From: Peribolospora baueri
Taxonomy: Eukaryota > Basidiomycota > Peribolosporomycetes > Peribolosporales > Peribolosporaceae
Length of the DNA: 64,000 bases
Assembly (NCBI GenBank): GCA_029717555.1
Contig: JAMDHS010000039.1
Location: 62,001 to 126,000, forward strand
Reading direction: 5' to 3'
Positions within the stretch are counted from its first letter, which is position 1, and every line of letters starts with the position of its first letter. A program made the translations under genes and the position numbers. A model generated the notes under the pieces. It had not been told where the DNA came from, did no database searches, and was given only the letters and a program-made list of their open reading frames with translations. This document shows, piece by piece, positions 45,604 through 62,900 of this stretch.

Positions 45604-48600
45604 TCAGCGCTTGGGCGTGCTGGAGGTAAAGCTGGGGATGCGCGAACTGCGATTACGGTTCGCATACGCGGAAGGCGCGCTCGGCGGAGGCAACCTTGAG
45701 CCCGCAGGAGGTCGTGCCTTTTCAGGTGACGAAGGAACGGGCAAGCTCGAGCTGGCTGGCGGTGGCGGCAAAGACACGTCGAGCGGCCTGACGGAAGACG
45801 TAACGGACGCCGCCGCTGCCGCACCGTGCATGATGCCTGAAAGGGGAGACCGAGCAGGAAGACCACGGAGGGACGCGAAAGACTGAGACTGGCGGATGTT
45901 CTGAGCTTGTGCCGAGGGTTCAACGGCGGCGGCGACGCCGGAGGGATCGGCGTCGTGAGCGTGCTCGTTGTAGTAAGGCAGCGACGTCCTCGAGCCGCTA
46001 AATAGCCTGCTTGGCGGACGTATTTTCATACCGGAACTCGCTGGTGTACCCGTGGAAGTAGCTGCAGGCGTTGGTAGCGTTGACGGTAGGGACGGCCGTC
46101 CAGCGAGCGCACGACGTGCCGGTGTTGCTGCTGCTGCTGCTGTTTGCGCCGGCGTTGACAAGCCCGAGCGAGTCGACAGGCTTGACGGAATCCCAGATTT
46201 TGCCAGGGATGAAGACTTGGTAGGCGAGCCAGGCTCTCGTAAGGACGACAAATCCTTGCCCGCCGCCCCAAGGCCTTGTGACGACCACCCGCCCGGCTTC
46301 GACGACGACGACGACGACGACGACGACAAACCGGCCCAGGCGCTGGGCGGCTGCGAGCTGTCGCTTCGGACCGAACCGATGGACCGCGATGACGCGACAG
46401 AACTGCTGCTCGATCTCCGACCGGCTGGGACGGCAGCCGATCGTGATGGTGTGGGAAGGCCGGTGGGTCGGGCGGCGGTCGGCGACGCGCCGGACCCAAC
46501 GGACGAGAGCGACTGCTTGCTAGGCGAGGGCGGCGTTGTCCAATCAGTGCTGTTCGAACCGGCCAGCTGACGGATCCGAGAAGGTGGGGAGCTCAAGCCT
46601 GCCGTCGACGGCCCAGTCGATGCGTTTGCGTTCCCTTCCTTGAGCAAGGCCTCGTGGTCTTCTGCGTCCACGCTCGTCGCTTGCGTCGCCCAGCTGCGTC
46701 TTCCCACGCTCGCCGGACCTGAAGAGGTGGTCAGGTTCGTGCTGGACAGCGGCGGAGACGTGCTGTCGTCGTCGGTAGACGCCGCCGAGAAAACATTGGC
46801 ATTGGAGGAGACGTGGAGGAAGCGGTCGGACTTGTCCGAGGAGAATATGGCGCCGCGACGGAGAAAACTATCCCTCGTTCGGCTGGGCCACGTCGAGCCG
46901 GTGCTCGCTCGACTGCCGCGGCTCCGGGCCGCGGCGGCGGTCACGCCGCTAAGCGAGGTGCGATCGGAATTGCGATAGCCTAATCGCGTGGGCGACATCG
47001 AAGGCAGGCCAGAGTTGGAACGTTTGGGCGAGTCTAGGGACATGTCAAAGTCAACGTCGTCCGCCGTCTCTCTTCGGGCGACGGGTGGGAGAAAGGAAGA
47101 CGTGATCCAGCCTTGATCATCATCGACGGGGTCAAAGTTGAGCTCGGTACTGCTGTCCGAACTGTCCTTTCGATGGCCATAAGGTCGAGCGAGCTGGCCG
47201 GCGGTGCCAATCTCGGATTGAGTCTTGCGCGTCGTCGCCCTCAGGCTGTTCAACGAATCGGACGCCCTCTGTTTGCCTTTCCGACTTGGACCACCACCAC
47301 CACCACCACCACCCGCGCTGCCGCCCTCGCCCTCAGAGCTGCTCCAACCCGTTCCTCGATCGGTCATCGGCATGGCGCTGACCGTCCGACTCAGACGGCC
47401 TCCTCTCGGCGACGGACCTGGCTTGACGGGCGTCGGCGCGGCGACCTTGACGGTGGGATATTCCAGCACGTGCGTCCGCTCGGCTAAGCTCGCGAGGCTC
47501 TCATTGATGTCGAGGTCCGACTCATCGGAACCTGGTCGATGATTGGCCAAGGTCCGCGGCCAATCGGTGAGCCGAGAGAGGTCGTCAGACGAGGAGGAAC
47601 GAAGAAAATCCTCACCACCGCCGCCGCCGCCGGCGGTGAGATCGGGCGGCGGGCTCACCGATGGACGCCGCCGGGACGGTGGGTTGGGCAAAGACAGTGG
47701 CAAGGGCGGCAGCGCCTCGGTGGGAGGCCCCGTGGCTGGCGGCGGCGGCGGCCCACCAAGCGGCCGCGGATCCCGCGGTGGTGGCACCTCGTGGTCGTCC
47801 GAGGGGGAGTACAACCGAGCCTCCATGTCGTCCAAGTCGCTGCTGGTGGTGACGGAGCTGACGCTGACGCTCTGGGCGATCGATGATGGCGCTCCGGGTG
47901 AGCGCCCATGACCTTGGGACCTGCCGACGGGTGTTCGCCTGCTGGAGATTGTTCTTTGTCGATCGAGGTGGCCGTCGGCGTCACTATTTCCATCGCTGCT
48001 GTCTCGAACGACCTCCGTGTCCTCCTCGGCAGACGGATCGCCGCCGCCGCTGCCGTCCAGGGCGCCGATGACACCACGGTGGAAGGAAGAAGTGGAGAGC
48101 CGTCGGAGATTGACCGCGTACAAAGCTTTCGTGCTCGCCGACGACGTCCGCTTTTCGTCAGGCGAGCCAGCCTTTCCCGACGCTGACGCCGACGCCGGAA
48201 TCGGCGGTAGGGCCTCGGTCGGTGGGGCCGACGGTGCTGGACCGTGGCGATTGGTATTGTTGGAAAAGTATCCCAGCGGACTGCCGTCCCGACTGGCGTA
48301 CTCGCTCAGTGGGCTCTTTTCGCTGCCGGAGACGGAAGAGGAGTATTCGATGGTCTCGATGCCGGCGATACCGGAATGTCCGCCGCCAGTGTCGACACGA
48401 AGCGACGGCACGGCTCGGAGTAAGGGAGAGCGGGATGATGCCGACGAAGACGATGACGGGCCCGCTGCGGTGGCGAGTGTTTCGCCGAAACGTGGCCTTG
48501 GGGGCATGTCTAACCTGCCTGGAGGACTCCTGGTTGGTGTGGCGCCTGCCGTCGTCGTCGAACCGGAGCCACCGGTGGTGGGAGGGGGAAGAGGGGGCAA

Positions 48601-51600
48601 CGGAAGCGTGGGAGGCCTGCTAGGGTCGAACGCCTCGCCGAGGCGGGCGGACGGATGTTGAGCGGGCGTCTCTGCCAAAGGCGGCGGCGGCGGCGACGAC
48701 GACGAGGATGATGATGATGGTGACGATGCCCTGTTGTCCTGCTCTTCCGACCTCGACCCTTGTCCTTCCCATGCGGCCGCCAGGGAAAGCGCGGACGGTT
48801 TGCGCGAGGCGCCGCCCGCACCACCACCACCGCCGCCGGCGGCGGCGGGTAGGACGGCGGTGGTCGTCGGCGGCGCGGGAAATTGTGGAGTGGCAAAGTC
48901 GTCCGAGCTGTCGCTCGCTCCGCTCGCCGTGCTCAACACGCTGCCTCGCCAGGACGCGGCGTCGTATCGGAGGACCATGCCCGTGTCCGGAGCCCCCGTT
49001 CCGTCCGTCCCGGGCTCGCTCTCCTTGAGATCGGTGCGAGGCTCGGAGGAGGAAAGGGCGGCAATGGGAGAAGACGAAGGGACGGAGACGGGGCTCTTGA
49101 TGCTACCAGACCTGTTGCCCGAAGCCGCAGCGAGCTCCCTGAGCCTCTGCTCGGCCTCGAGCCGTTCCGCAAGGATCTGGCTAGCTTTTCTCGAAATGGT
49201 GCCTGGTGCCAATCGGGAGCGCGATGGCGATGCCGACCGGGATGGTGTTAAGGACAAGGACGACGGCGGGCACTTCATCGTCGTTGGAGAGGTGAGCGGG
49301 GAAAGTGAAGGTGAGAGCGGGGAGGTGGGTCGTGGGAAGGAAGACGAAGACGAGAGCGGGGACGTGGGTCGTGCGAGGGAAGACGAAGACGACTCGCGGC
49401 GGTGAGGTAGACTGGCGCCCCTGGCGGCGGCAAAGCGTGCCGTCTCCCCCTCTTTTTCTTTTCTGACAACCTCCTTCGGAGGGCTGCCAGACTGCGCGTG
49501 CAGCTCGCCCTCCAAAGCGAACGGTTCATGAGTATCGTGTGTGGTGCTCCCAAGATCGCCCGTCGCCGTCGCCGTCGTCGTCGGCGGAGAAGGAGGAGAG
49601 GGGGGCTCGAAAGCAGTCACGGCGGTGACTGCGGACGAGACCGACGCCGAGCGTCCCGAGCGGCCTGACCACTTGCGGCGGATCGGCAAGCTCGGACGGC
49701 CATGCGGTGGCGACGGGGGGCTGTGGCGCGACAGTGACTGTGACCGGTCCTCGTTCGTCTCTTCGTCCATCGGTTCAGGCGACTCGGATCTCGCGAGGGC
49801 GCCGAGGATGGAGGACGAGACGGAACGGGGGGACGCGTCGCCGCCGGGATCACCATCATCGAGTTCGGTAAAACCGGTGTCGAGCGTCTCCCTGGCGGAG
49901 AGAAAGCTTGCGTCGCTCCGTCTCCGACTCTCGGCGGTACCCCTCCTGCTGGGGATGGAGACGGCGAGGCTAGGGTCGCGAGACGGCGAGGCGGGGGAAG
50001 GGTCGCGAGACGGCAAGGCGGGAGGAAGAGGAGAGGCGTCTTCAGGAGAGCCGGACGAATGAGGCGGGTCAGGCCAGGTGAACGCGTCGAGACCGAGGCC
50101 GAGGCCAGAGCCGATCCTGCCTCCCTTGCCATCAAAGCCGGTGCCGAGGGGGGAAGGTGGGGGGGAGTCGGAATGCGTGCCCCAGGGAGGCGTTTCGCGA
50201 GGCGTTTCGCGAGACGTGGATGTGGACGTGGTGGATGTCGATGCGGTCGACGTCGATGGACCGCCACCGCCTCCGCCGCTGTCGTCGCTCGACTTTGTCA
50301 CAGACGACTGCAGCGGAGGCGCAGATACCGACGAGGACAGCTGCGAGCTGGCCCGCTTGCTCCAGGAAGGCGGGCGGGGCCGGGAGGAGCGACTGGACGG
50401 GAGCTCGGACATGCCAGCGCCGACGACGGTCGACAGGCCGGCGGACGGCCTCGGACCGGTATCACCGCTGTCTGCGCCGCCGTCGCTCATCTGTGCCTCC
50501 CTCTTCTCCTTTTCCGCCGCGTCCCGCTGTTCATGCTCGCCAACCATTTCAACCGCTGTCGTCGCTGTCGTCGCCACCGTCGTCGTCATCGTCGTCGTCG
50601 TCGTCGTCGTCGCCACCGTCGACCGCGTCGAAGACTCAAAACTACCGCTTCGGCCGGTCAAATTGCCAACGACCGGCGGGGGCCCAGTAGTGACGTCCAA
50701 GGATACCTTCCCCACGGGGTTCTCCACACGTCCGGAACTTGCAGTCGCAGTCGTACCTCCAGCTCCGTCAAACGACGAAGACCGGGACGAATCGCCCCCA
50801 CCGTCTCCTTCAGAAGAAGACGAGTCCGACGGGGCAAAAAAGATCGTCTGTCTTCCTCCTTCTTCCCTTTCCCTCGTTGGCGGGCGGAGGGAGAACTTGG
50901 GGATGGAGAGGGAGCGAGCTTGTGCCTGCGCTTGAGCTTGTGCTTGCGCTTGAGCTTGAGTTCGTTGGGAGAGGGAGAAGGAGGAAGGCGGTTGGGATGA
51001 GGTGGCGGTGGCCGGCGGCTTGTTCGCACGAGGACCTCCTTGTCCTCGGTCGAGACTTTGCCCACCTCCTTGACGTTGAGAGGGCGCACTGGGTACCGGA
51101 GGAGACGGTGACGATCGCTCGGGATGGGAAAGGGGATCAGAATCGTGATGCGAATGCGAATGTGACGAGTCGTTCCTCGTGCCGGCAAAAGCAGCGGCAG
51201 AGGCGCTGGTGGGGGAGAAGAGGGTGCCAAAGGAGGAAGCGTGGGCGTGGGCGTGGGACCGTGCGGAAAGTTCGTTGACGTTTCCACCGCCGCTGCCGCT
51301 GCCGCCAGGGCCAGGGCTACTGTAGCCGTAGCCGTATCCTTTGGCGTATCCGTAGCCGTTCGCTGCGTTACCGTTCGCGTTGGCGCCGCCACCGAGAGAG
51401 GGGGCGAGGGTGGGAGTACGAGGCTCAGCAAAGCTATCAGGCGAGCTTACGACCGAGCTAAAGACGCCTCCGCTGGCGGTCGAAGACGAGAGACTACCGC
51501 TCGCCAGCGGCGTCTCGGACAAGGAAGACGGAGAGGAAGGTGGGGATGCGAAGCCGAATCCACCGCCGAGAGCGGGCGTGAAGACGGGCGCGGACGAGCC

Positions 51601-53457
51601 GGCGGGGATGGAGATGGACGGGTATTCGTCCAAGCCGGAGATGGCGGGGATGGGAGCGATGCCGAGGCCGAGGCCGAGGCCTAGTTCGACGCCGCCGGAA
51701 CGTCCCGGAGGACCAGCTTCTTCGCCGAGCGGGCCGACGAGACGGGTGGCTTGCTCGTGCCGCCGGGAGGCGACGAGTTGGTGAGCGTGGGCGAGATGGG
51801 AAGGAGAGGTGGCGCGTTCGTTCGGGTAGACGGTTTGGAAGGAGGGAGAGACAGGCGACGAGAGCGGGGTGGCGAAGGGAGTATGGAAAGGCGTGGTGGA
51901 GGGGGTAGCGAAGGGGTCCCTGGCGGTGCCGACGGACGAGTGGCTGTCGGTGCTGAGTCGTTCGACGGGCGAAAGCCGTGCGCCGGTGTTGGTGCTGCCA
52001 GCGCCGGCGTTGCCAGAAGAGTGAGGAGAGAGCAAGTCGAGCGAAAGCGGAGGGAGTTGGCGCGGGCGGTGTTGGGAGGCGGTAGAAGAGACAGAAGGGC
52101 GGTGATGGGAGTCGTACGACGGCCGGTCTTCGCGGTGGTGACGCGAGAAGGGCTGCTCACGCGTCGGCGGAGGAGGAGCTCGGCGGGGCGAGGTGGGCGA
52201 GGGCAGCGGGGGGACGACGGGAGAGGAGATGTCAGACACGGAGGGCGCGGGCGAGTGGCCGGGGGAAGAGGGAAGAGAAGGCGTGGGCGAGCTGGAGACG
52301 AGGAGGCCGACTTTGGCGCCGAGTCTGGCGCCGAAGCTCTGTCTCCTCTTTTTCTTGTACTGCTTTCCAGCGGCGTCCGCACTCGACCCTGTCGTCGCAC
52401 CACTTGTTCCCGTCGCCGAGTCGGACGGTGGGACGGCGTCGGCAGCGCCGGCCCCGGCCTTTTTACCGCCTCCGCCGCCGGCACTCTGACTCCTGCGCTT
52501 GTTCTTGGCGAGGCTGAAGCTGCGCCTTCGGGCAGGCGGCGGTTGCGGCTGCGAAACAGGGACGGCAGGCGGCGGAGGAAGGGAAGGGAACGGTTGCTGG
52601 TGCTGCTCAGGGCCGGCGGCGAGAGAGGGGAGGGAAGGGCGACGACGAGGATCGGGATGAGGAGCGTCTCTGTCTCTGTCTCCGGACGTGGACGGGCGGC
52701 GCGACTGGCTGGGCGAGGAGGAGGAGGAGGAGGAGTGGGGATGGGTGAGAGAGGAGAGTCTGCGAAAAAGAGAGGGGCTGGCGGCGGGAAGAAGGTGAGG
52801 AGGCGGGGCCGAGGTGGAGGGGGAAATAGGAATACGAGAGCGCAAGGGCGATGAAGGATGGGGCGAGCGGGGCGACGGTGAGTGGGAGGGCAGGGACGGG
52901 CGCGGGTCCAAGATTAACGGCGGCAGTGGCGGGCGTGATCCTTCGGCAGCGTTGATCAGCGAAGGCGGTCCATGGTTGTGTTTGTGACCGTGGCCGTTGT
53001 GGTTACCAGTGGCGATGGTGGTGGTGGTGGTGGTGGTCGCCGCGTTCGCGTTCGCCGGCGGCAGCGGAGGGATGTCGGGCACAGGCTCGGCCGAGTCCAC
53101 GTCGAGACGCGTCTCCTTGCTCGTCGTTGCCGCCTTGGCTCCTCCGCCGCCGCCTGGACCAGGACCGGAGGGCACGCTCTGGCTCCTGACTCTGGCGTGG
53201 CCCCGGTTGGCTTCGCCGCGACGACGGCCAGGACCGACGGCCTTGCCCGAGCCCGAGCCAACGAGGGTAGCAGTGCTGGACGAGGTACGGAGGGGCGGGA
53301 AGAGCGCGTCGGCGGGCGAAGAGGGCGGGGGAGTCTGAGGGAAGGGGGAAGAGGAAGCCAAGGTGGTGGTAGCGGTGGTCGCGGTGGAGGAAGAGAAATG
53401 GGACGCTCCGTCGTCGCCCGGTCGCCGCCGTCCAAAGTACCTCCGAACATAATCCAC
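45604..53457 (-). CDS. Giant, almost wholly disordered Ser/Pro/Gly-rich protein (about 2,600 residues) in one exon; possible microtubule plus-end partner
   Basis: A 7.85 kb frame without a stop, far longer than chance even in GC-rich DNA, and the only intron-poor host gene here. The product is disordered: Ser, Pro, Thr, Gly and Ala dominate, with homopolymer runs (Thr, Ser, Gly), a QA dipeptide run and HAHAHA/HSHSHH tracts. Dense basic S/T-P patches look like phosphosites. No enzyme domain is visible. A short charged helix (SQILAERLEAEQRLRELAAA) lies near the middle. S-x-I-P motifs in basic, Ser-rich context occur in the N-terminal third (RSRIPISPS) and twice in the C-terminal part (KSGIPSS and the final SSRIPSFTS), the type bound by EB1 proteins. 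The frame begins VDYVRRYFGRRRPG at a splice-acceptor-like CCAAG and contains no ATG until about residue 965, so the start codon must lie on an upstream exon; a donor-like site is at about 53886-53891. Function is inference. Confidence 0.7.
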   Translation of the reverse strand: MDYVRRYFGRRRPGDDGASHFSSSTATTATTTLASSSPFPQTPPPSSPADALFPPLRTSSSTATLVGSGSGKAVGPGRRRGEANRGHARVRSQSVPSGPGPGGGGGAKAATTSKETRLDVDSAEPVPDIPPLPPANANAATTTTTTTIATGNHNGHGHKHNHGPPSLINAAEGSRPPLPPLILDPRPSLPSHSPSPRSPHPSSPLRSRIPISPSTSAPPPHLLPAASPSLFRRLSSLTHPHSSSSSSSPSQSRRPSTSGDRDRDAPHPDPRRRPSLPSLAAGPEQHQQPFPSLPPPPAVPVSQPQPPPARRRSFSLAKNKRRSQSAGGGGGKKAGAGAADAVPPSDSATGTSGATTGSSADAAGKQYKKKRRQSFGARLGAKVGLLVSSSPTPSLPSSPGHSPAPSVSDISSPVVPPLPSPTSPRRAPPPPTREQPFSRHHREDRPSYDSHHRPSVSSTASQHRPRQLPPLSLDLLSPHSSGNAGAGSTNTGARLSPVERLSTDSHSSVGTARDPFATPSTTPFHTPFATPLSSPVSPSFQTVYPNERATSPSHLAHAHQLVASRRHEQATRLVGPLGEEAGPPGRSGGVELGLGLGLGIAPIPAISGLDEYPSISIPAGSSAPVFTPALGGGFGFASPPSSPSSLSETPLASGSLSSSTASGGVFSSVVSSPDSFAEPRTPTLAPSLGGGANANGNAANGYGYAKGYGYGYSSPGPGGSGSGGGNVNELSARSHAHAHASSFGTLFSPTSASAAAFAGTRNDSSHSHSHHDSDPLSHPERSSPSPPVPSAPSQRQGGGQSLDRGQGGPRANKPPATATSSQPPSSFSLSQRTQAQAQAQAQAQAQARSLSIPKFSLRPPTREREEGGRQTIFFAPSDSSSSEGDGGGDSSRSSSFDGAGGTTATASSGRVENPVGKVSLDVTTGPPPVVGNLTGRSGSFESSTRSTVATTTTTTTMTTTVATTATTAVEMVGEHEQRDAAEKEKREAQMSDGGADSGDTGPRPSAGLSTVVGAGMSELPSSRSSRPRPPSWSKRASSQLSSSVSAPPLQSSVTKSSDDSGGGGGGPSTSTASTSTTSTSTSRETPRETPPWGTHSDSPPPSPLGTGFDGKGGRIGSGLGLGLDAFTWPDPPHSSGSPEDASPLPPALPSRDPSPASPSRDPSLAVSIPSRRGTAESRRRSDASFLSARETLDTGFTELDDGDPGGDASPRSVSSSILGALARSESPEPMDEETNEDRSQSLSRHSPPSPPHGRPSLPIRRKWSGRSGRSASVSSAVTAVTAFEPPSPPSPPTTTATATGDLGSTTHDTHEPFALEGELHAQSGSPPKEVVRKEKEGETARFAAARGASLPHRRESSSSSLARPTSPLSSSSSFPRPTSPLSPSLSPLTSPTTMKCPPSSLSLTPSRSASPSRSRLAPGTISRKASQILAERLEAEQRLRELAAASGNRSGSIKSPVSVPSSSPIAALSSSEPRTDLKESEPGTDGTGAPDTGMVLRYDAASWRGSVLSTASGASDSSDDFATPQFPAPPTTTAVLPAAAGGGGGGAGGASRKPSALSLAAAWEGQGSRSEEQDNRASSPSSSSSSSSPPPPPLAETPAQHPSARLGEAFDPSRPPTLPLPPLPPPTTGGSGSTTTAGATPTRSPPGRLDMPPRPRFGETLATAAGPSSSSSASSRSPLLRAVPSLRVDTGGGHSGIAGIETIEYSSSVSGSEKSPLSEYASRDGSPLGYFSNNTNRHGPAPSAPPTEALPPIPASASASGKAGSPDEKRTSSASTKALYAVNLRRLSTSSFHRGVIGALDGSGGGDPSAEEDTEVVRDSSDGNSDADGHLDRQRTISSRRTPVGRSQGHGRSPGAPSSIAQSVSVSSVTTSSDLDDMEARLYSPSDDHEVPPPRDPRPLGGPPPPPATGPPTEALPPLPLSLPNPPSRRRPSVSPPPDLTAGGGGGGEDFLRSSSSDDLSRLTDWPRTLANHRPGSDESDLDINESLASLAERTHVLEYPTVKVAAPTPVKPGPSPRGGRLSRTVSAMPMTDRGTGWSSSEGEGGSAGGGGGGGGPSRKGKQRASDSLNSLRATTRKTQSEIGTAGQLARPYGHRKDSSDSSTELNFDPVDDDQGWITSSFLPPVARRETADDVDFDMSLDSPKRSNSGLPSMSPTRLGYRNSDRTSLSGVTAAAARSRGSRASTGSTWPSRTRDSFLRRGAIFSSDKSDRFLHVSSNANVFSAASTDDDSTSPPLSSTNLTTSSGPASVGRRSWATQATSVDAEDHEALLKEGNANASTGPSTAGLSSPPSRIRQLAGSNSTDWTTPPSPSKQSLSSVGSGASPTAARPTGLPTPSRSAAVPAGRRSSSSSVASSRSIGSVRSDSSQPPSAWAGLSSSSSSSSSKPGGWSSQGLGAAGKDLSSLREPGSPTKSSSLAKSGIPSSLSTRSGLSTPAQTAAAAATPARRALAGRPSLPSTLPTPAATSTGTPASSGMKIRPPSRLFSGSRTSLPYYNEHAHDADPSGVAAAVEPSAQAQNIRQSQSFASLRGLPARSPLSGIMHGAAAAASVTSSVRPLDVSLPPPPASSSLPVPSSPEKARPPAGSRLPPPSAPSAYANRNRSSRIPSFTSSTPKR

Positions 53458-55456
53458 CTTGGCAAGACGGTCGCGCGAGCCGGCGCGCGCGGGAGGGGGG
53501 AGGGGGGGCGGCGACGTCTCAAGGCGGCGATGACGGCGACGTCAAGTGGTCGACTCGGAGGAAAGGAGGTGGGAGAGGCGGGCGAGAGGCGGGCAAGAAG
53601 CGAGGAGGAGAGGGGAAGGATCGGCGGGGCGAAAGGAAGCAAGGAAGCAAGTGGGGAAAGAGATGGTTGGGTTGGAGAGAGAGTGTCGGGGGCGGGAAGG
53701 AGGTGGTGAGGAGTGGGCAGGGCTGGTGGGGATGGAGGAGGGAGGAGGGAGGATGGGATGGTATGAAATGGTATGGTACGGAATGGAATGGAATGGACGA
53801 TGGTGAGCACGTCCCTCGTCCCATCTCATCTACATTCACCGTCCTTCTTTCCTCTTTCCTCCATCTCGAACCTACGCGAACAGATCTCACCTGAACTGCG
53901 ACGATGAGCCGAGCCGATCTTCTTTCTCGACCCGGGGAAAGGTGGTGGATGAAGAAGGAATGGATGGACAGGCAGGTGGAGCGGCTGTAAGTTGTGATGT
54001 GCTCTCTTCTCTACCTCGCTCTTTCTTTCTTTGTCTATTTTTTTCTCTTTTCTGTGCTTCTTGCGCTCGCTCGCACACAAGACGGCCGACAGCGACAGCA
54101 GCCAGCCAAGGCAGCTCACACATGAAATGGAGAATAATAATAAGCGAGGCGTTCGGTCGCACTTGCACGTCTTTCCCACCCTCTTCTCTTCTCTCGACTG
54201 CAGGCCGACGCCAGTGCAGCGCCTCACACCGTCTGCGCATGCCCGGGCCCGGACCGTGCCTAACCCTACAGGACCTACTTCGATAACTGATGGGCATGCC
54301 AGATAACCGCGACGGCGACGCCTGTGCAACCCACCAACCCACCAACCAACCAACCAACCTCCCTCCTGGCGCCCATCGCGGCGTCACTCCCGGCCAAGCG
54401 TCCGTCAGCGGTAAAGCGTCCGCGATCTCCGACGGCGAGGGGGACGCTAGCGTGCACGTGATCCAGTCAAGCAAGGGCGGGCGAGAAGGTAAGCCAGCGG
54501 CGGCGGCGCGGATCCATCGCCGTGCCGACATAGCCAGAGCCTCCCAGCGGGCGATCACCGGGGCTCTCTCTGCCGGGCAGCAGCTCTCTTTGCTGGCAAG
54601 CGAGTGCCAGTGCGAGTGCGAGCTTGGCGGTGGTCAGCGCCAGCTAACGGCTGACTAGCGCACGCAGCGCCGACGTCGAGCATGTACAAAGCGAGGGGGT
54701 GTAGTGTAGTGCGGCGGAGAAACGAAGGAAGAAAAAGAAAGAAGAAGAAAGAAGAAAGAAGGAGATTTGGCGGCATTCTCGTTTTTTCCCCCGACTGAGA
54801 CCCCCCTCGTCCACCGACCGACCGAACCTCCGAGCGGCGGATGGCGTTCCTTCCAGTCCTACGCCGACCTGACGCCGACGCCGACATCGACGCCGATCCG
54901 AGGCGAGGCGACGTTCGAGAAGAGAAGAGGAGAAGATCCACTTCCGAGCCATGAGCCAACGGAGAGAGATTGGCATGAGATGCGATGCGATGCGATGCGA
55001 TCGGTGATCGTTGTCGTTGTCGTCGTTGGCCAACGTCTCGAGAGAAGACAGACACAATCAGTCCAACGTGCGCGTTGCACAGGATGGATGGGACCGCGTA
55101 CAGTGCGACGGCGCAGACGACGGACAAACGAACGAACGAACAAAGGTACAGCCAACCAACCTTGTTCGCCCTGTCCGACCCGACGACCGATCCTCTCCTC
55201 CCGTCCACGCAGCCGACCAAGCGAGCGGCCCGAGCCCCGTCCTTGCTTTTCTTTTCCTTTTCTTTCTTTCGAGCATCTTCGGTCGTCCGCTTCCTCGCCT
55301 TTCCTCGTGCCCAAACACAGGACAGGAAAGGACTGTAACTACGTACTGTCAACCCTGTCTGTCATAAGCATACCTTCGCATAGTGCATAGCGGTCTCCCT
55401 TTCCTGCTTGTTCCCCAGCCAAAAATGGACTGCTCCCAGCCAAAACACCGGTCTAT
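53458..55456. other. 2 kb upstream region of the giant ORF, low-complexity
   Basis: No complete gene is supported. The first 450 bp on the - strand should contain the 5' exon and leader of the giant gene. The region has simple-sequence tracts: a GGAATG-like run (about 53750-53800), AACC repeats (about 54328-54358), an AAGAAG tract (about 54725-54765), a GCGAT run (about 54980-55000) and CGAA repeats (about 55125-55142). Many open frames overlap on both strands, none convincing. Confidence 0.4.
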
Positions 55457-58190
55457 ATGTATACTAAACATATCGCGTATTGCATAGCACTGACACCGGT
55501 GCCGGCATGCATAGTAGAGGCCGGGCGAAAGGCATCACGTGACCCAGAGTCGATGCACGGACCACTACACGCCACCGCGCATCACACTTCTTCAGCAAGG
55601 GCCATAATGCTTGTTGGCCAAAGCAAACTAACCTCTGCGCTGGCAGTGCGCGCAGCCTCCTCTTTAATCGCCTCACCTTGCGTTGTTTTGGCGAAAGACG
55701 TAGAAATCCCGGGGGCGAAGGGAAAGCGATTTTTCACAGGAAGCTGGCGTGACTGGTTCGAACCGAATCAAGCATTTCGAGGAGGCTCATTTCTGGTACA
55801 AAGTCATATTTTCCAATGTCCCGTCGAGGTTTACCTAGACGTCTACGTCTCTCCTGCCGCCCTCGCCAACCGCGACTCCATCACCGCCGGTGTCCACCAC
55901 TACTTCCCCGGCGAGATACGCCTCTGGCAAAGCAAGCTCGTCGACGCCGTGATGAGCGTACGTTTCTTCACGGAGGAAGGCGCAAGAAAGGTTCTGGACT
56001 TTGTGCTCAGGGCGCTTACCAGATCAGCTGAAACGGGCCGTCACGGTTTTATTTTATCTTTGTACTCGCTCGTTCTCTCGCCCATTGCGCAGTTTTCTGT
56101 CTCTCTCCTTCGCCAAGGCCGAAGATGAAATCAAATCAGGGCTGAAGGTGTCATCCGCGTCTAGATCGTCCAAACTCTCATTCCACATCCTCGCGCCAAT
56201 CTTCCTGGACTACCACACCATTTCTGGAGCAGTTTCTCGCTTGGGAATTTGGCCAGTTTTTCCGTAGGAACACCATCAACGCCCTCACCTCGGCGAGCTG
56301 GGTGTGATGGGGCTACTGCTTAAAATGGACAGAAGAGGAAAGGCAGCGTACGTCGCGGACCTCGCCGTGTATCACGGGCACCAGGATGCCCGGTACCTCC
56401 AAGTATGGGCAAATTCCCAGACCTCTGCGCCCAGTGCAGCGCATCGACGAGGAGAGCAACGCATGGGAACCGGCCTTGGTGGCCACGGCTTCGACTCCTT
56501 TCTCCCTCGTACGCAGGTTTTCCCAGGGGTTAGAGCTATGACCACGGCTAGTTCAGCACGAAGGCTCCTATACGATAAATGCCACACCCTTATCCGTCGC
56601 ACCAAGCGACCTCTATCCTTGGCCAGCCGCCCGCGCGTCTTTCCATCACAAGCATCCCGCAGGAGTGCAGAACGGCTTCCTTGATGCAGTCTGCCGGGTC
56701 ACAAAGGCCAACGTCGTTACCATGGGTACTCTTGCTTCCCACTGGATTAAGGCGATGGCCTGACCTGTTATCTCAACACAGGACCTGCACGACAAGATTC
56801 GCGGCGTTGCCACCGACCCGAAAGTGATAGGACGTGGTCAAAATCGACCCTTCTAGAGGACACAGCTGACACAGCCATGGTCCTCATGGAGGATGGGTTT
56901 ACCACCCGACAATTCATCGACTTACCACAAGGCGCATGCGTGTACTGCCCAATCTGTGAGACAAGGCTGGCAAGACAAGGTACAAGTGGCCTTCAGGGTA
57001 TCGGTACGGCATCGGCCAGGATCTTCATGACAAACACCGGCTCGCACGGCCTCCACTGCTTCAGCTGCGACAAGACGTTCTTCATGGCGGCGACGTACCG
57101 ACGTACAGAAATGTCGGTGAGGCCAGATGAGGTAATCTGCCTTCCTCTCACGACAAGCAAGATCAACTCTGACGGCCGCGAGGACATTTCCCCCGTCGTG
57201 GACGGCACACATCGCATGACCTGCATCTCAGCGGGGACTGGGTTGGGAAAGACCGAATACGTGAACACCGTGCCGTACCGCGCCCTCCTCCCTGGCGACC
57301 TCAGCGTTCTCGCGATTTCGGGCCTCTCTCGCTTCGTATCAGGCAACTAGGTGGCATCTCACCGACTATCAAGCCGAAGAAGCCTTTTCCCACCCACCCG
57401 TGCGAACTATATCGATATGCCTGAATTCGATAGTTCGCATTCCCAGGGATGTTGCCTACTCCTTCGTCATTCTGGACGAGGCCGACCCGACGGCTATTCG
57501 GCTCTCGCTGGCCGAGGCAACAATGGACGACAGGTTCTCCGACGTCCTAGTGCAGCTTTCCGCCATCCTCCGCAAGTCCTTCCACATCTTTCTGCTTCAA
57601 GCAGACTTAACAGAGGACGCGGTTGAGCTCTTCGCGTCGTTGGCCGGTTTGGACGCAGAGGACCGGCGTCCAGTCCGACGCGTCCGAATCGATTCACCCC
57701 GTCAGTTTTACCCAATGGCAGAAACAGAGGACCAGGCACTGGTCATTGGGGCGCTAAGGCGCATGTACGAAGACCGGTTTGATCATGACCGCAAGAAGGT
57801 CAAAATGCCGATAATTGTCTTCTGTACGTACCGCGCGTTTCGCGACCGCACTGTTCGTCTGGCTACAAACCGAGGTACGTGCAGCCCAATGTCTTTCGAG
57901 TGGAGTGGCGCTAGCACTTCTGACTTGCCGGCCTCTCACCACGCCACGCTCAGATCTGCCAATATCCAGAGGCGAAAGAGCGGATCAAGCCCATAACTGC
58001 AGACTCGCGGGAAGCCGGCTTCCTCAGAAACGCCAATGCCGAGACTTCAACGGCGGACATTGCGATAGTCTCCCCAGTTTTCGCCGCGGGCATATCAGTG
58101 GACCGGCACTACCGAGGTCGTTTTGACTTCCTACACAAATGCGTTCTAACGCACGACGCCGAGTGGCAATTTACAGCCTGACATTCCACC
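55457..58190 (+). mobile_element. Fossil of a herpes-pox-type primase plus superfamily 2 helicase element, broken
   Basis: A decayed coding unit reading on the + strand. The first part (about 55.6-56.4 kb) resembles an archaeo-eukaryotic primase (AEP) of the herpes-pox type, including the late motif in which an Asp-x-Ala-Val-Tyr segment is followed by an Arg. A zinc-ribbon-like region with paired CxxC motifs lies at about 56.93-57.09 kb, a Walker A loop (GTGLGKT) near 57.23-57.25 kb, and a Walker B (ILDEAD) near 57.46-57.49 kb, followed by helicase-like sequence to about 58.2 kb. Primase and origin-binding-type helicase are joined in large DNA viruses and related mobile elements. It is broken, with at least about six interruptions, and no terminal repeats were identified. 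The motifs remain legible, so it is of middling rather than very great age. The exact family is not known. Confidence 0.6.
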
Positions 58191-58268
58191 CTCTCCCAGT
58201 GTAACGCACCCAAGATAGGAGATGGAGGAAGACTACTGGGTTCCATGGTGGTCGGTGGGGGCTGCGAT

Positions 58269-58318
58269 GGATATCACCGCCCTCCACCAACCACCTGACC
58301 TAGCCTACATGGCGATCT
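58269..58318 (+). repeat. Left copy of a direct repeat flanking the gypsy fragment
   Basis: This copy and the one at 59388-59437 agree at roughly four fifths of positions and share the exact 16-mer GACCTAGCCTACATGG. The two lie about 1.1 kb apart in the same orientation. They could be remnants of terminal repeats or a local duplication. Confidence 0.7.
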
Positions 58319-59387
58319 GGGCGCCTTACCGTTACACCACCCTCTCACCGCCAGTGCAATATTCCACTTCCCGCCTCACGCGGGGTGGCGATGAGGTCGG
58401 GCAAGAGCTGGGAGACCTTGGTGCGGATGTACTGCTTGTTCAGCAGGTCTGCCAGGTTGAACGCTCCTCCGTTGCAGTAGGCCGCTGTGGCGACCGAAAT
58501 CTCCGCCTTGACGTAGAGATTGTTGTCGATCAGGCGTTGAAGGACCTCACGAACGTGTTCGACATGTTGGGCTCGGTCTGCCAGAAGATCAAAATGTCAT
58601 CGAGGTATACGAGTACTGTGACGTCAAGGAGATCACGAAAGAGATAGTTCATGAACCCTTGGAACGTCGCGGGGGCGTTGGTAAGCCCAAAAGGCATGAC
58701 GGCCGATTCAAAATGGCCATACTTATTCCGAAAGGCCGTCTTCCATTCATCTCCGTCCTTGATCCGGATAAGGTTGTAGGCGTCACGGAGATCCAAGGGC
58801 GTAAAGAGACCGGAGACGCCTCCGCCATTGCCGTTCATCATGGTGCTGGCAAACGTTACGGTGGCCGAGGCGTTGGGGACGCCGCTGGCGTCGATGGCGA
58901 GGCGACCAAAGGCGTGCACGTTCTGGTCGGTGCCGGTGGGCGGGACGAGGACGATGCCAGAGCCGACGCTGCTGCGTGGGACGCCCATCTGCGAAGGGGC
59001 GATGGAGAAGACGGGGGCGGAGAAGCTGGACGGCTTGCGAGCGGACGCCTGGTTGTCGTGTTCGGACCTGAGCGCGCCAGCGGCGCCGGCGCTCTAAGGC
59101 CCGCCGTAGGGTTGGCCGTCGCTGGGACACGGGTTGGAGCCGGCGCGGGCCCTGGGGATGAGCGAGGGGGCCATCTTGACGGACAAGAGGCGAGGACGGT
59201 CTGGCTTTGCGGGGACGATGGTGGCGGAGGGCGCCGACGCCGACGTGGGCGCGAGCGGGGATGGAAGGCTCGGGCGTCGGAGGCTGATCGAAGCCCGCTG
59301 CTGAAGGAGGGATTGACAGAGTCGAGAAGCAGGTGGGGGCGGGGATGTAATGGTCGATCCCATGAAGGGACAAATGGTGTGGAGATT

Positions 59388-59437
59388 GATATCGACGCCC
59401 TTTACCGATCAAATGACCTAGCCTACATGGTGATCGT
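59388..59437 (+). repeat. Right copy of a direct repeat flanking the gypsy fragment
   Basis: The partner of the repeat at 58269-58318, in the same orientation. It begins GATATCGACGCCCT and carries the shared 16-mer. Confidence 0.7.
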
Positions 59438-59705
59438 GACAATTGGTCTCCATCGTCGAATGTCGGGAATGCCTGAAGGAAGGAGAGGGGTCAGATGCCA
59501 GTCACACCTTTCACTACTGCTTGAAAGACAGGGAGAGGAAGAATATCAAGACTCGTATTCACAGCTATGAGGCGATCGTGAAAGTGTGAAGGGAGAAAGA
59601 AGGCGTAGATGGTCACAGAAGCGCGTCCGCTATTAGCGGCCGATCGCTTCACCGCCTGCTGACATACCGTCGACGCATCGTATCATATCGTAATCACCAC
59701 CCACC

Positions 59706-59879
59706 ATGGACGCGCGAGCAAGACAGTACCATCAAGCGCAGAGCTTCCACCGCGTCCCACCAACGACTCCTCATTTTCCCCCCAATGGCCAAGTTGCGTA
59801 CGGAAACCACGTCGCCATACCCTCGCGCCAGCAGGGTACTTCCGTGTCGACAACGGGGATACTGCATCCTTTGTCCTTT

Positions 59880-59910
<31 letters not shown>

Positions 59911-62900
59911 ACATTCTTCCACCAGCACATCCGGTCGCACCCTCCCCCCAACACCATTCTTCTCTCCAGAACTGGAGAGGTCCAGTCGCGGCAGTCGCAG
60001 CAGAGATGGTGCCAACGCATCCTCAACTGCTCATGCAATCGCATCCTTATTACCTCCCACACGCCATCGGAGCTCCCCCAGCTGCACCTCCGCCACTGAT
60101 GAACACCCCTGTTCCGACCTTACAAGCGTCGACGTTGGCTGGCTTCGATCAGATACGAACACCGTCCTTTTCTGATGGGCACCCCAAATCTGAATACCGA
60201 CGACGACAGTCCGACGGTCCCACGATCAACCCTCGACCAGCCAAGCGGCCGCGTTTGAGCGACCAGAACAATACCCGATCTCGTGTAACACCTGCAGTTC
60301 TTCTGCGGATGTCACTCTCTTTTTTGCGCAGTGCGCAGTCTGTTTTCGGGATCATCAGCTCTCTGCCCACCGGCCACCCTAGTAGGGACGAATCGATTCG
60401 ACGATATCATGAACTGGTACACGCCGCAGTGTTGACCCTCCTGGCTCTGCTACGAGCAGAAAGGCTGGATCCGAAACTAGAGCTCAGGGCACGGATTATC
60501 CTAGCAGAAGTGCTCCTTCGGGAGACGCCTGGTAACGTTGAGGTGGAGCGGGTTATATCCAAAGGAGTGAGTAGCGTCAGAATGACTCCAGTATCAGAAG
60601 TGTCATTGCGCTGCCAGAATGCAGTTTCTCAAGCTTCTGGATGGTGTCCTTCTCCAACCTGAAACCTATAGATACTACTCGCGCAGAAGCACACAGAACT
60701 GGCCGACTTGAAATATCGTCTGTGCGATCTTCAAGTGGAGTTGGCCGTCGCCCTCGGCAACTTTCATTTTGCAAAAGTGCAGCTGAAGAAGTTGTCGAAG
60801 GAAGTCGCAAGGTCAGTGCACCGCCCAACCTCCTCCGCCGGGATGGCTTTCGTCGCAGAGCGACTGACCACACCTTTGCTCTTTCGCGCAGCCTCTCGCG
60901 ATCAACAGTCTGGCGTTACCATTTCAACTTTCGGCTTTTCGCCCTTCATTTACAGCATGAGGGCGACAGATCAGCTGCCCTCGGTGCCCTTCGTGATGTC
61001 GAGCGTCTTTCTTCGGGTGCCGGGGATACGTGGATCTGCGCAGCGGCAGGGTTGATGAGGGCTAGGGTTATGTTCTCTGCGTCGGACTTGGGAGGGGTCG
61101 AAGAGGCTTTGAGTGCAGTCGAAAGCCTTCTCCCGCCATCACTATTCTCCAGCACTGTTGGAACCGCAGAACCATCCCACACTCACCCATTTCAGCGTAG
61201 GCTCCTTGCGTACTTCCTTGTTCTCGACACTATCCTTCGCGTACACAGAGGAGATGCTCAACGGGCTAAAGAAAGGCTGGCAGTCCTCCACTCTCTGCTC
61301 GACGGAGGCGGTATGGAAGAAAATGGAGAATCAGAAGGATGGTTGTGGGTAAGTGGCTTCGTCGATGTTGACTTTGTGCTCCGTCCGACTCAGAGCTTGC
61401 TGACGAAAGGCGGCTCTTTCCCGTCACACAGATACCCCTTGCGAATCCGTCAGGTGGAGAAGTACTGTCTGCGCACCAATCATCTCGCCCGGAACAGCGG
61501 ACAGAAGCTGTTCTCCTGTCGGTGTCCCCGAAGACACAACTTTATACCTTAGCATTCCTTGTCAGCGCCCTCGTGCACTCTTCCAACCCGGTCAGCAAGA
61601 CCCAAACGAAGCTGGACGCCTTTGCAGGTCACGGGTTGGTGAACGTGAACAATCTCTTGTGCAGATCAGAGGGTGAGTCCGTATTCTAGCTGAGCCATGC
61701 TTTAATTCTCAGCTCATTCAGAGAACATGGATGCGGTCTTGATGTTTGACCGTGCCACCAACTATCTAGGGTCAGACATCATGCGAACACAAAGTAACAA
61801 AGTATCTGTCATGATCAAAGCCGAAGTTCTTATTCTCATGGTCCAAAGTGCGATCATGCGCTCAAAGTTCGTTGAGGCTGAACAGGTGAATATTTCCATC
61901 CGCTTTCCCCCCCGGGTCTGAAGTGTGGTATTAAAGATCTTCGACCTCCATCTGACACTTCTCCGTCTCCTCCGAACTTTCTTTATTTCATAAGGTCTTT
62001 CTTGACCTGGTCTCACATCTGCGGACGTATAACCTTTTTGATCGCTTTTCATCTCGAACTCTGCTCCTGAGTGCCATGCTGCTGCATGCCCGCGCCAGGC
62101 CCTCCGAAGCCCTTGAGACGTATCGCCTCGTCGCGTTCAATGAACGAAGAACTGGGGTCAGCACAACAAGGGACGAAGGTCCAGAATCGCCAACAAGCAA
62201 GACGAACCTTGTCCTCGACTCGACTGAAGTGGCCCTGCTTGCTTTGGTTGGCGAGGTGCTTGTGCGTGCTGGAGAGCGAGCCTGGCATGACGCAGACGGT
62301 CGGCATCGAGGCGGCCAAGTGTCTATCCAGTCGTCCACCAGTGGCGACGAACGTCCCCTGGAGGAGCTGGTAAAGGACGTCGGAAAGGCATGCGCCGCCT
62401 ATGGAAGCAAGAGGTTAGAACTTGCCGGCAAGCTCATTGAAAGCGTGTTGAGAGTGGAGATCCTTGGGAAAAAGTGAGCTTGCAGCGTCTAGCTCTGTCA
62501 AAACCTCTCAGTCGCTGTGTCGTGGCTGACGCTTCTCTCTGCTTGCGACAGGGCGCTCCTCGCTGGAGCATTATCGCTCGCTCAATCCTGCTCCAATCAT
62601 CACGTAATCGCCTTGCTCTTCGGTCTACTCGGCGGTCTGTTCCTCAACACACGCAACATCGAAGCCGAGAAGATGCTTCAGTCCGGATGGCATCTTGCCG
62701 CGCTCATGGGCGGCGCAGCCGATGAAGGGGACAACCGAAAACGTTCGAGAAAAGGCGTAGGGCACGCCCGGCTTGGTCTGTGGATCGGAGAGAACCTTCA
62801 AGGCGAGTATAACAGTGGCACTCTTCAGGCGATGCGTCCGTTCCGCTGCTGAGTTCGCCGCACTTGGACTTGTCGCAGTTCTCTACACTCGAACAGGGCG

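Follow-up and report, generated by a model that had tools for sequence, protein, structure and literature searches.

Comparison with described replicases

Helicases of superfamily 2 (SF2) that serve replication include the CyRepA1 proteins of bacterial plasmids and the origin-binding protein UL9 of herpesviruses (PF02399, Herpes_ori_bp); in herpesviruses, the origin-binding helicase and the primase are separate proteins. Here, we describe a dead, frame-broken gene on the plus strand of a 64,000-nt stretch of DNA from the basidiomycete Peribolospora baueri (the whole stretch is hereafter called the window), located at approximately 55690–58178. This unit is what is left of a real, once-functional nuclear gene for a probable primase-helicase. 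Its helicase is that of the CyRepA1 plasmid proteins and, through them, of the same group as UL9. Compared with CyRepA1, which is bacterial, the fungal unit additionally has a part resembling archaeo-eukaryotic primases (AEPs) and a zinc ribbon upstream of the helicase, as well as an intron, and in contrast to the herpesvirus proteins, its helicase and primase-like part appear joined in one gene.

A layout of AEP and C-terminal domain is shared with the all3500 family of AEP primases from bacterial mobile elements, in which the C-terminal domain is SF2-like and has nearest phage homologues that include a group most similar to UL9, according to excerpts of PMC5862659. This family is prokaryotic, and it is likened to the fungal unit here by its description. 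The same excerpts mention two AEP homologues annotated in fungi, which were taken as bacterial contamination (PMC5862659). Modules of this kind occur in bacterial mobile elements, as far as these excerpts describe them (PMC5862659), and the new part is the spliced fungal form. Among the titles listed in searches of the open-licence literature, none dealt with such an architecture in fungi. Eukaryotic DNA transposons described so far rely on transposases, rolling-circle Rep-helicases or protein-primed polymerases. If a fungal nucleus once had a spliced primase-helicase replicase of plasmid and herpes type that was under selection, this would indicate that fungi have genome parasites of a plasmid-like or viral class, and it would supply a eukaryotic link between the plasmid CyRepA and the herpes origin-binding helicases.

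We lean, with some reservation, towards reading the unit as the dead remnant of an intron-bearing replicase gene of the nucleus, derived from a nuclear self-replicating element or a virus that is now extinct. Most likely, one chain would have combined an AEP-like primase, the zinc ribbon and a helicase from the CyRepA1/herpes origin-binding group of SF2.

Structure of the unit

Read from 5' to 3', and all in a single orientation, the parts of the unit are AEP-like motifs I, II and III, the zinc ribbon, Walker A, Walker B and a motif V-like block. Pieces of the gene were detected at a minimum of four loci, that is, at least the window and three copies referred to as C133, C71 and C123, in a genome of 22.1 Mb. 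The original prediction had proposed a fossil primase, zinc ribbon and SF2 helicase of herpes-pox type, in one orientation, at 55457..58190. The helicase (by profile search), the zinc ribbon and the Walker boxes hold, whereas the primase part is recognised by motifs only; the term fossil is supported. The extent required correction, as the left end at 55457 falls within the end of a foreign repeat (55345–55504), of which 55457–55504 is the inner part. Between this repeat and the unit, an open frame at 55505–55690 runs on into the unit, and no second copy of it was found.

The helicase

The helicase block lies at 57316–57648 and matches positions 36–148 of the CyRepA1 profile (NCBIfam NF042913, model length 595) with an E value of 7.7e-10, and a second piece at 57999–58178, the motif V region (ADIAIVSPVFAAGIS...), matches positions 228–286 with E 0.004. 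The two pieces, collinear on the model, are two of the six submitted to that search. The score of 38.3 bits is under the curated 200-bit cut-off, as expected of a fragment, and the match persisted (E 1.3e-7) when the main piece was cut shorter. When the model was run against the fungal genome, the window was the best match (1.1e-8), and the sole other match (0.025) lay at a different place. The model also gave sub-cut-off matches (E ≤1) in 9 of 14 control genomes and must therefore be regarded as one of wide reach.

A search of 72,556 plasmid records (E limit 10) returned a single match, to a protein annotated as CyRepA1 in the record of a Chlorohelix plasmid (E 1e-3), and in a BLAST comparison of this protein with the window, 40 of 153 columns were identical (26%; E 2e-10 for the single comparison). 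The Chlorohelix protein in turn matches Herpes_ori_bp (5.7e-13) and the herpes origin-binding protein of solved structure (E 2e-4). Judged by residue numbers, these matches share the register of the direct but weak match between the window and Herpes_ori_bp (E 0.13). A weak match to phrog_4913 ('replication', E 0.013) points in the same direction. Given the window's CyRepA1 matches and the CyRepA1 protein's herpes origin-binding matches in the same register, comparison of these proteins strongly supports placing the helicase in the CyRepA1/UL9 group of SF2 helicases. An origin-binding-type helicase accompanied by a zinc ribbon and a primase-like part is supported. The predicted herpes-pox type is not borne out for the primase, for which profiles gave no match and a tree was not feasible.

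Walker A (GTGLGKT) is at 57234–57254, and Walker B (FVILDEAD) lies within the helicase block at 57463–57486. Patterns were counted in the window's open frames of at least 30 aa (n=1,296; 104,108 aa), with the mean of 50 shuffles as the expectation. GxGxGK[ST] occurred once (0.36 by shuffles), as did hhhDEAD (0.02). The helicase is incomplete through motif VI, since the window unit breaks off at 58178, at the start of what we take to be that motif; C123 extends further. DUF3854, the N-terminal domain of CyRepA1 proper, was not found in the pieces scanned, but Pfam does not report it for the Chlorohelix CyRepA1 protein either. A structure predicted for the helicase piece from its sequence alone was unusable (mean pLDDT, the predicted local distance difference test score, 32).

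The primase-like part and the zinc ribbon

The primase-like part starts at 55691–55957 with AEP motif I, which is degenerate in the window (YLDVYV, 55829–55846) and reads FYLDVDV in C133. Motifs I (hhhDhD/E) and III (hD/E) were used in the form printed in the excerpted text of PMC5862659. A stretch at 56118–56380, whose frame is broken in the window and open in C133, holds motif II (SSKLSFH, 56166–56186) and motif III (ADLAVY, 56355–56372). SSKLSFH is assigned by the general form of motif II. C133 carries all three in order, as FYLDVDV, SSKLSFH and ADLAMY, and the motif II stretch is conserved in C123 (there FHILAPI...LDDHT). The window's frames contain the motif II pattern a single time, against 0.22 by shuffles, and the motif III pattern three times, against 0.3, with one of the three in the unit. 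For motif I, three instances of the pattern lie in the window and none in the unit; with 1.78 expected from shuffles, this pattern is no rarer than chance. The only PDB match below E 0.01 for this part was FinO (E 0.007), located behind the motifs. From the motifs and the conserved motif II stretch, we consider it quite likely that the upstream part is a primase.

A linker (WEPAL..., SDLYPWPA...) at 56384–56721 is partly conserved with C123. The zinc ribbon, C-x2-C-x2-C ... C-x2-C (CVYCPIC...HCFSC), follows at 56937–57068; its pattern was found twice in the window frames, where shuffles gave 0.02, and one of the two is within the unit.

Introns

C133 contains an intron, termed B, of 67 nt and phase 0 with canonical ends, which starts with GTGGGT, ends with ACAG and has CTGAC before its end. 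In the window, a shortened remnant of it with a damaged donor occupies 56722–56781. It is absent from the open frame of C123, and C133 without the intron aligns by eye with this uninterrupted frame (DLHD versus DVHD). We read intron B from these alignments as a spliceosomal intron that was gained or lost between the lineages. Such an intron is evidence that the gene was nuclear and worked in a nucleus, and it implies that part of the decay described by the original prediction is splicing, so not every frame change in the unit is decay.

A further intron, A, is possible at 55958–56117, with GTACGT, a pyrimidine tract and AAG, and phase 0 on both sides. Its ends are the same in C133, and its 3' end differs in C71. 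With this putative intron removed, about 59 residues (hand count) lie between motifs I and II.

Copies and past selection

C133 is the nearest copy, with 88% DNA identity to the window over 1,477 columns; at the start of the primase-like part, a piece of it is 79% identical over residues 42–89. C71 shares 85% DNA identity over 386 columns. C123 is the most diverged, with 71% and 75% identity in two longer DNA blocks and 77% protein identity in the best block.

Differences between the window and C123 were counted by codon position in four blocks chosen on DNA and in nine chosen on protein. The two longer DNA-chosen blocks gave 9/4/36 and 6/4/19 differences at first, second and third positions (sum 15/8/55, p 2e-11), and the two short ones gave 1/0/6 and 0/0/2. 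The nine protein-chosen blocks, a choice biased towards conservation, gave 84/52/172. The nonsynonymous divergence (Ka) was 0.285 over 278 codons, and the synonymous divergence (Ks) was not computable, as on saturation. The third-position excess demonstrates, on codon-level evidence, that the window and C123 lineages diverged as working proteins under past selection at the protein level. For the window and C133, the counts over eight segments were 29/17/32 (p 0.09), and this lack of a clear codon-position bias indicates that these two copies diverged mostly as dead DNA.

The loci are also rearranged, and the copies of the gene stop at differing places. The C133 copy carries a small inversion, and in C71 the primase piece interrupts a member of a pogo-like repeat family, with an inverted duplication. 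A retroelement or twin-priming origin of the inverted C71 and C133 pieces was rejected, as their outer ends do not coincide (55909 versus 55798 in window positions). In C123, a palindrome separates two parts of the gene that face in opposite directions.

This palindrome is a 370-bp inverted repeat (L054, 5746–6115 and 6158–6527; C123, approximately 455,745–456,526) that is 100% complementary, with a 42-nt spacer and about 88 nt to the gene remains on each side, and it was not found elsewhere in the genome. It may have arisen by an assembly error, by a recent inverted duplication or through hairpin-type replication that left this trace. Short direct repeats (L040, 6673–6929; 57 nt, 79%) border the C133 copy; they are similar to C141 sequence close to a site that matches the repeats downstream of the unit in the window.

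Origin of the gene

In the replicase reading favoured here, the helicase part would open a replication origin and the primase part would lay primers on the exposed strand, whereby an extrachromosomal or transposing element would be copied in the fungal nucleus. At least two source lineages would have left DNA in the genome, and the pieces would then have decayed, been rearranged and become buried among other repeats.

Several observations weigh against this reading. Replication by the source is something that we infer. The primase profiles of Pfam, NCBIfam and PHROGs and the primase chains of the PDB gave no match to the primase-like part; nine further pieces, including the motif V piece of C123 and the window's Walker A piece alone, had no CyRepA1 match, nor did the second window piece when trimmed to 49 aa. 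One of the nine protein-chosen C123 blocks lacks the third-position excess (12/8/11). Run against the unit's own genome at E 1, the Herpes_ori_bp and Herpes_UL52 models gave no match. No relative was found in protein databases, in searches each limited by protein length, or in the viral-contig scans and one prokaryote scan. No inverted pair of at least 14 nt brackets the unit within 55200–60000, as terminal inverted repeats (TIRs) of its own would, and the C71 insertion has no visible target duplication.

A phage tblastn search also gave no match, and an intact relative or whole copy was found neither in the genome nor in the collections searched. Since fungal sequences may be few in these collections, the lack of matches there does not show rarity in fungi. 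That the unit marks a family of mobile or virus-derived elements not yet described, as the prediction suggested, is possible in view of the at least four loci, the past selection and the lack of relatives in the collections, but terminal repeats and a whole copy were not found, and no capsid, packaging, DNA polymerase or integrase genes were seen among the few neighbouring frames scanned (no genome-wide search was made). That these remains represent a family, new to description, of fungal elements that replicated themselves in the nucleus, or of nuclear viruses, with a one-chain, intron-bearing replicase of AEP primase, zinc ribbon and CyRepA1/UL9-type helicase, so far seen only as fossils and far from every protein in the collections searched, is a proposal that we make tentatively.

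Endogenised pieces of a large DNA virus, a giant-virus or herpes-like relative with primase and helicase fused, would account for the scattered, dead pieces and for the helicase's relationship to the herpes origin-binding protein, and a primase with an origin-binding-type helicase is a viral replication set. We nevertheless consider this unlikely, as no hallmark gene was seen in the few neighbouring frames scanned (without a genome-wide search), the viral-contig scans gave no match, and the gene has a spliceosomal intron, which is unusual for cytoplasmic viruses. The intron, together with the past purifying selection and the low copy number, would also fit a former host gene, a PrimPol-like and helicase fusion that was duplicated and then lost, leaving pseudogenes; eukaryotic PrimPol likewise has an AEP domain and a zinc finger. 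All four copies found are broken, however, with no live copy detected, no flanks in common were found between the loci, and the helicase is of a plasmid and virus replication group, which makes a host origin improbable.

Capture of a gene piece by the pogo-like TIR family, which would then have carried it, is very improbable. Two of the four loci touch this family, with the window unit following a broken end and the C71 piece lying within a member, but the C71 piece is an insertion, as three compared members (L036, L038 and L042) are uninterrupted at that point. Moreover, a search with eight member loci (30-base, E 1e-3 floor) found no member sequence in 9.9 kb around C133 or 20 kb around C123.

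Flanking sequence

The pogo-like family is a separate element that neighbours the unit. Its broken 5' end in the window, with the TIR TACTGTCAACCCTGTC..., lies outside the primase-helicase gene on the plus strand (55345–55504). This repeat end occurs at at least 40 places in the genome, window included, and 32 of the 39 others end at 55503–55504. The TIRs of the family begin with TACAGTCAACC. Among 20 listed copies, 15 have both ends visible; by eye, 10 of these have TA at both outer ends, and most of the 15 are approximately 550–750 bp long, with one of about 380. Longer members carry transposase pieces, and the member in C71 encodes an HTH_Tnp_Tc5 part (22.4 bits against a cut-off of 22.2), which assigns this abundant family to the pogo/Tc1 type. 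We rejected the possibility that the unit is an element bounded by pogo TIRs, since 55504 is where the pogo sequence stops and the C71 piece has inserted into a member.

Downstream, the unit meets a junction with repeat fragments that recur elsewhere in the genome (58179–58529, plus strand), followed by a reverse transcriptase fragment of a retroelement on the minus strand (58530–59093; RVT_1, E 2.1e-18). This fragment is flanked by 52-nt direct repeats (58266–58317 and 59384–59435) that are 81% alike and 1,118 bp apart. A cohesin-loader-like host gene lies to the right of the unit on the same contig of 195,735 bases, and to the left, on the minus strand, there is a serine- and proline-rich open frame of 2,645 aa (45604–53541).
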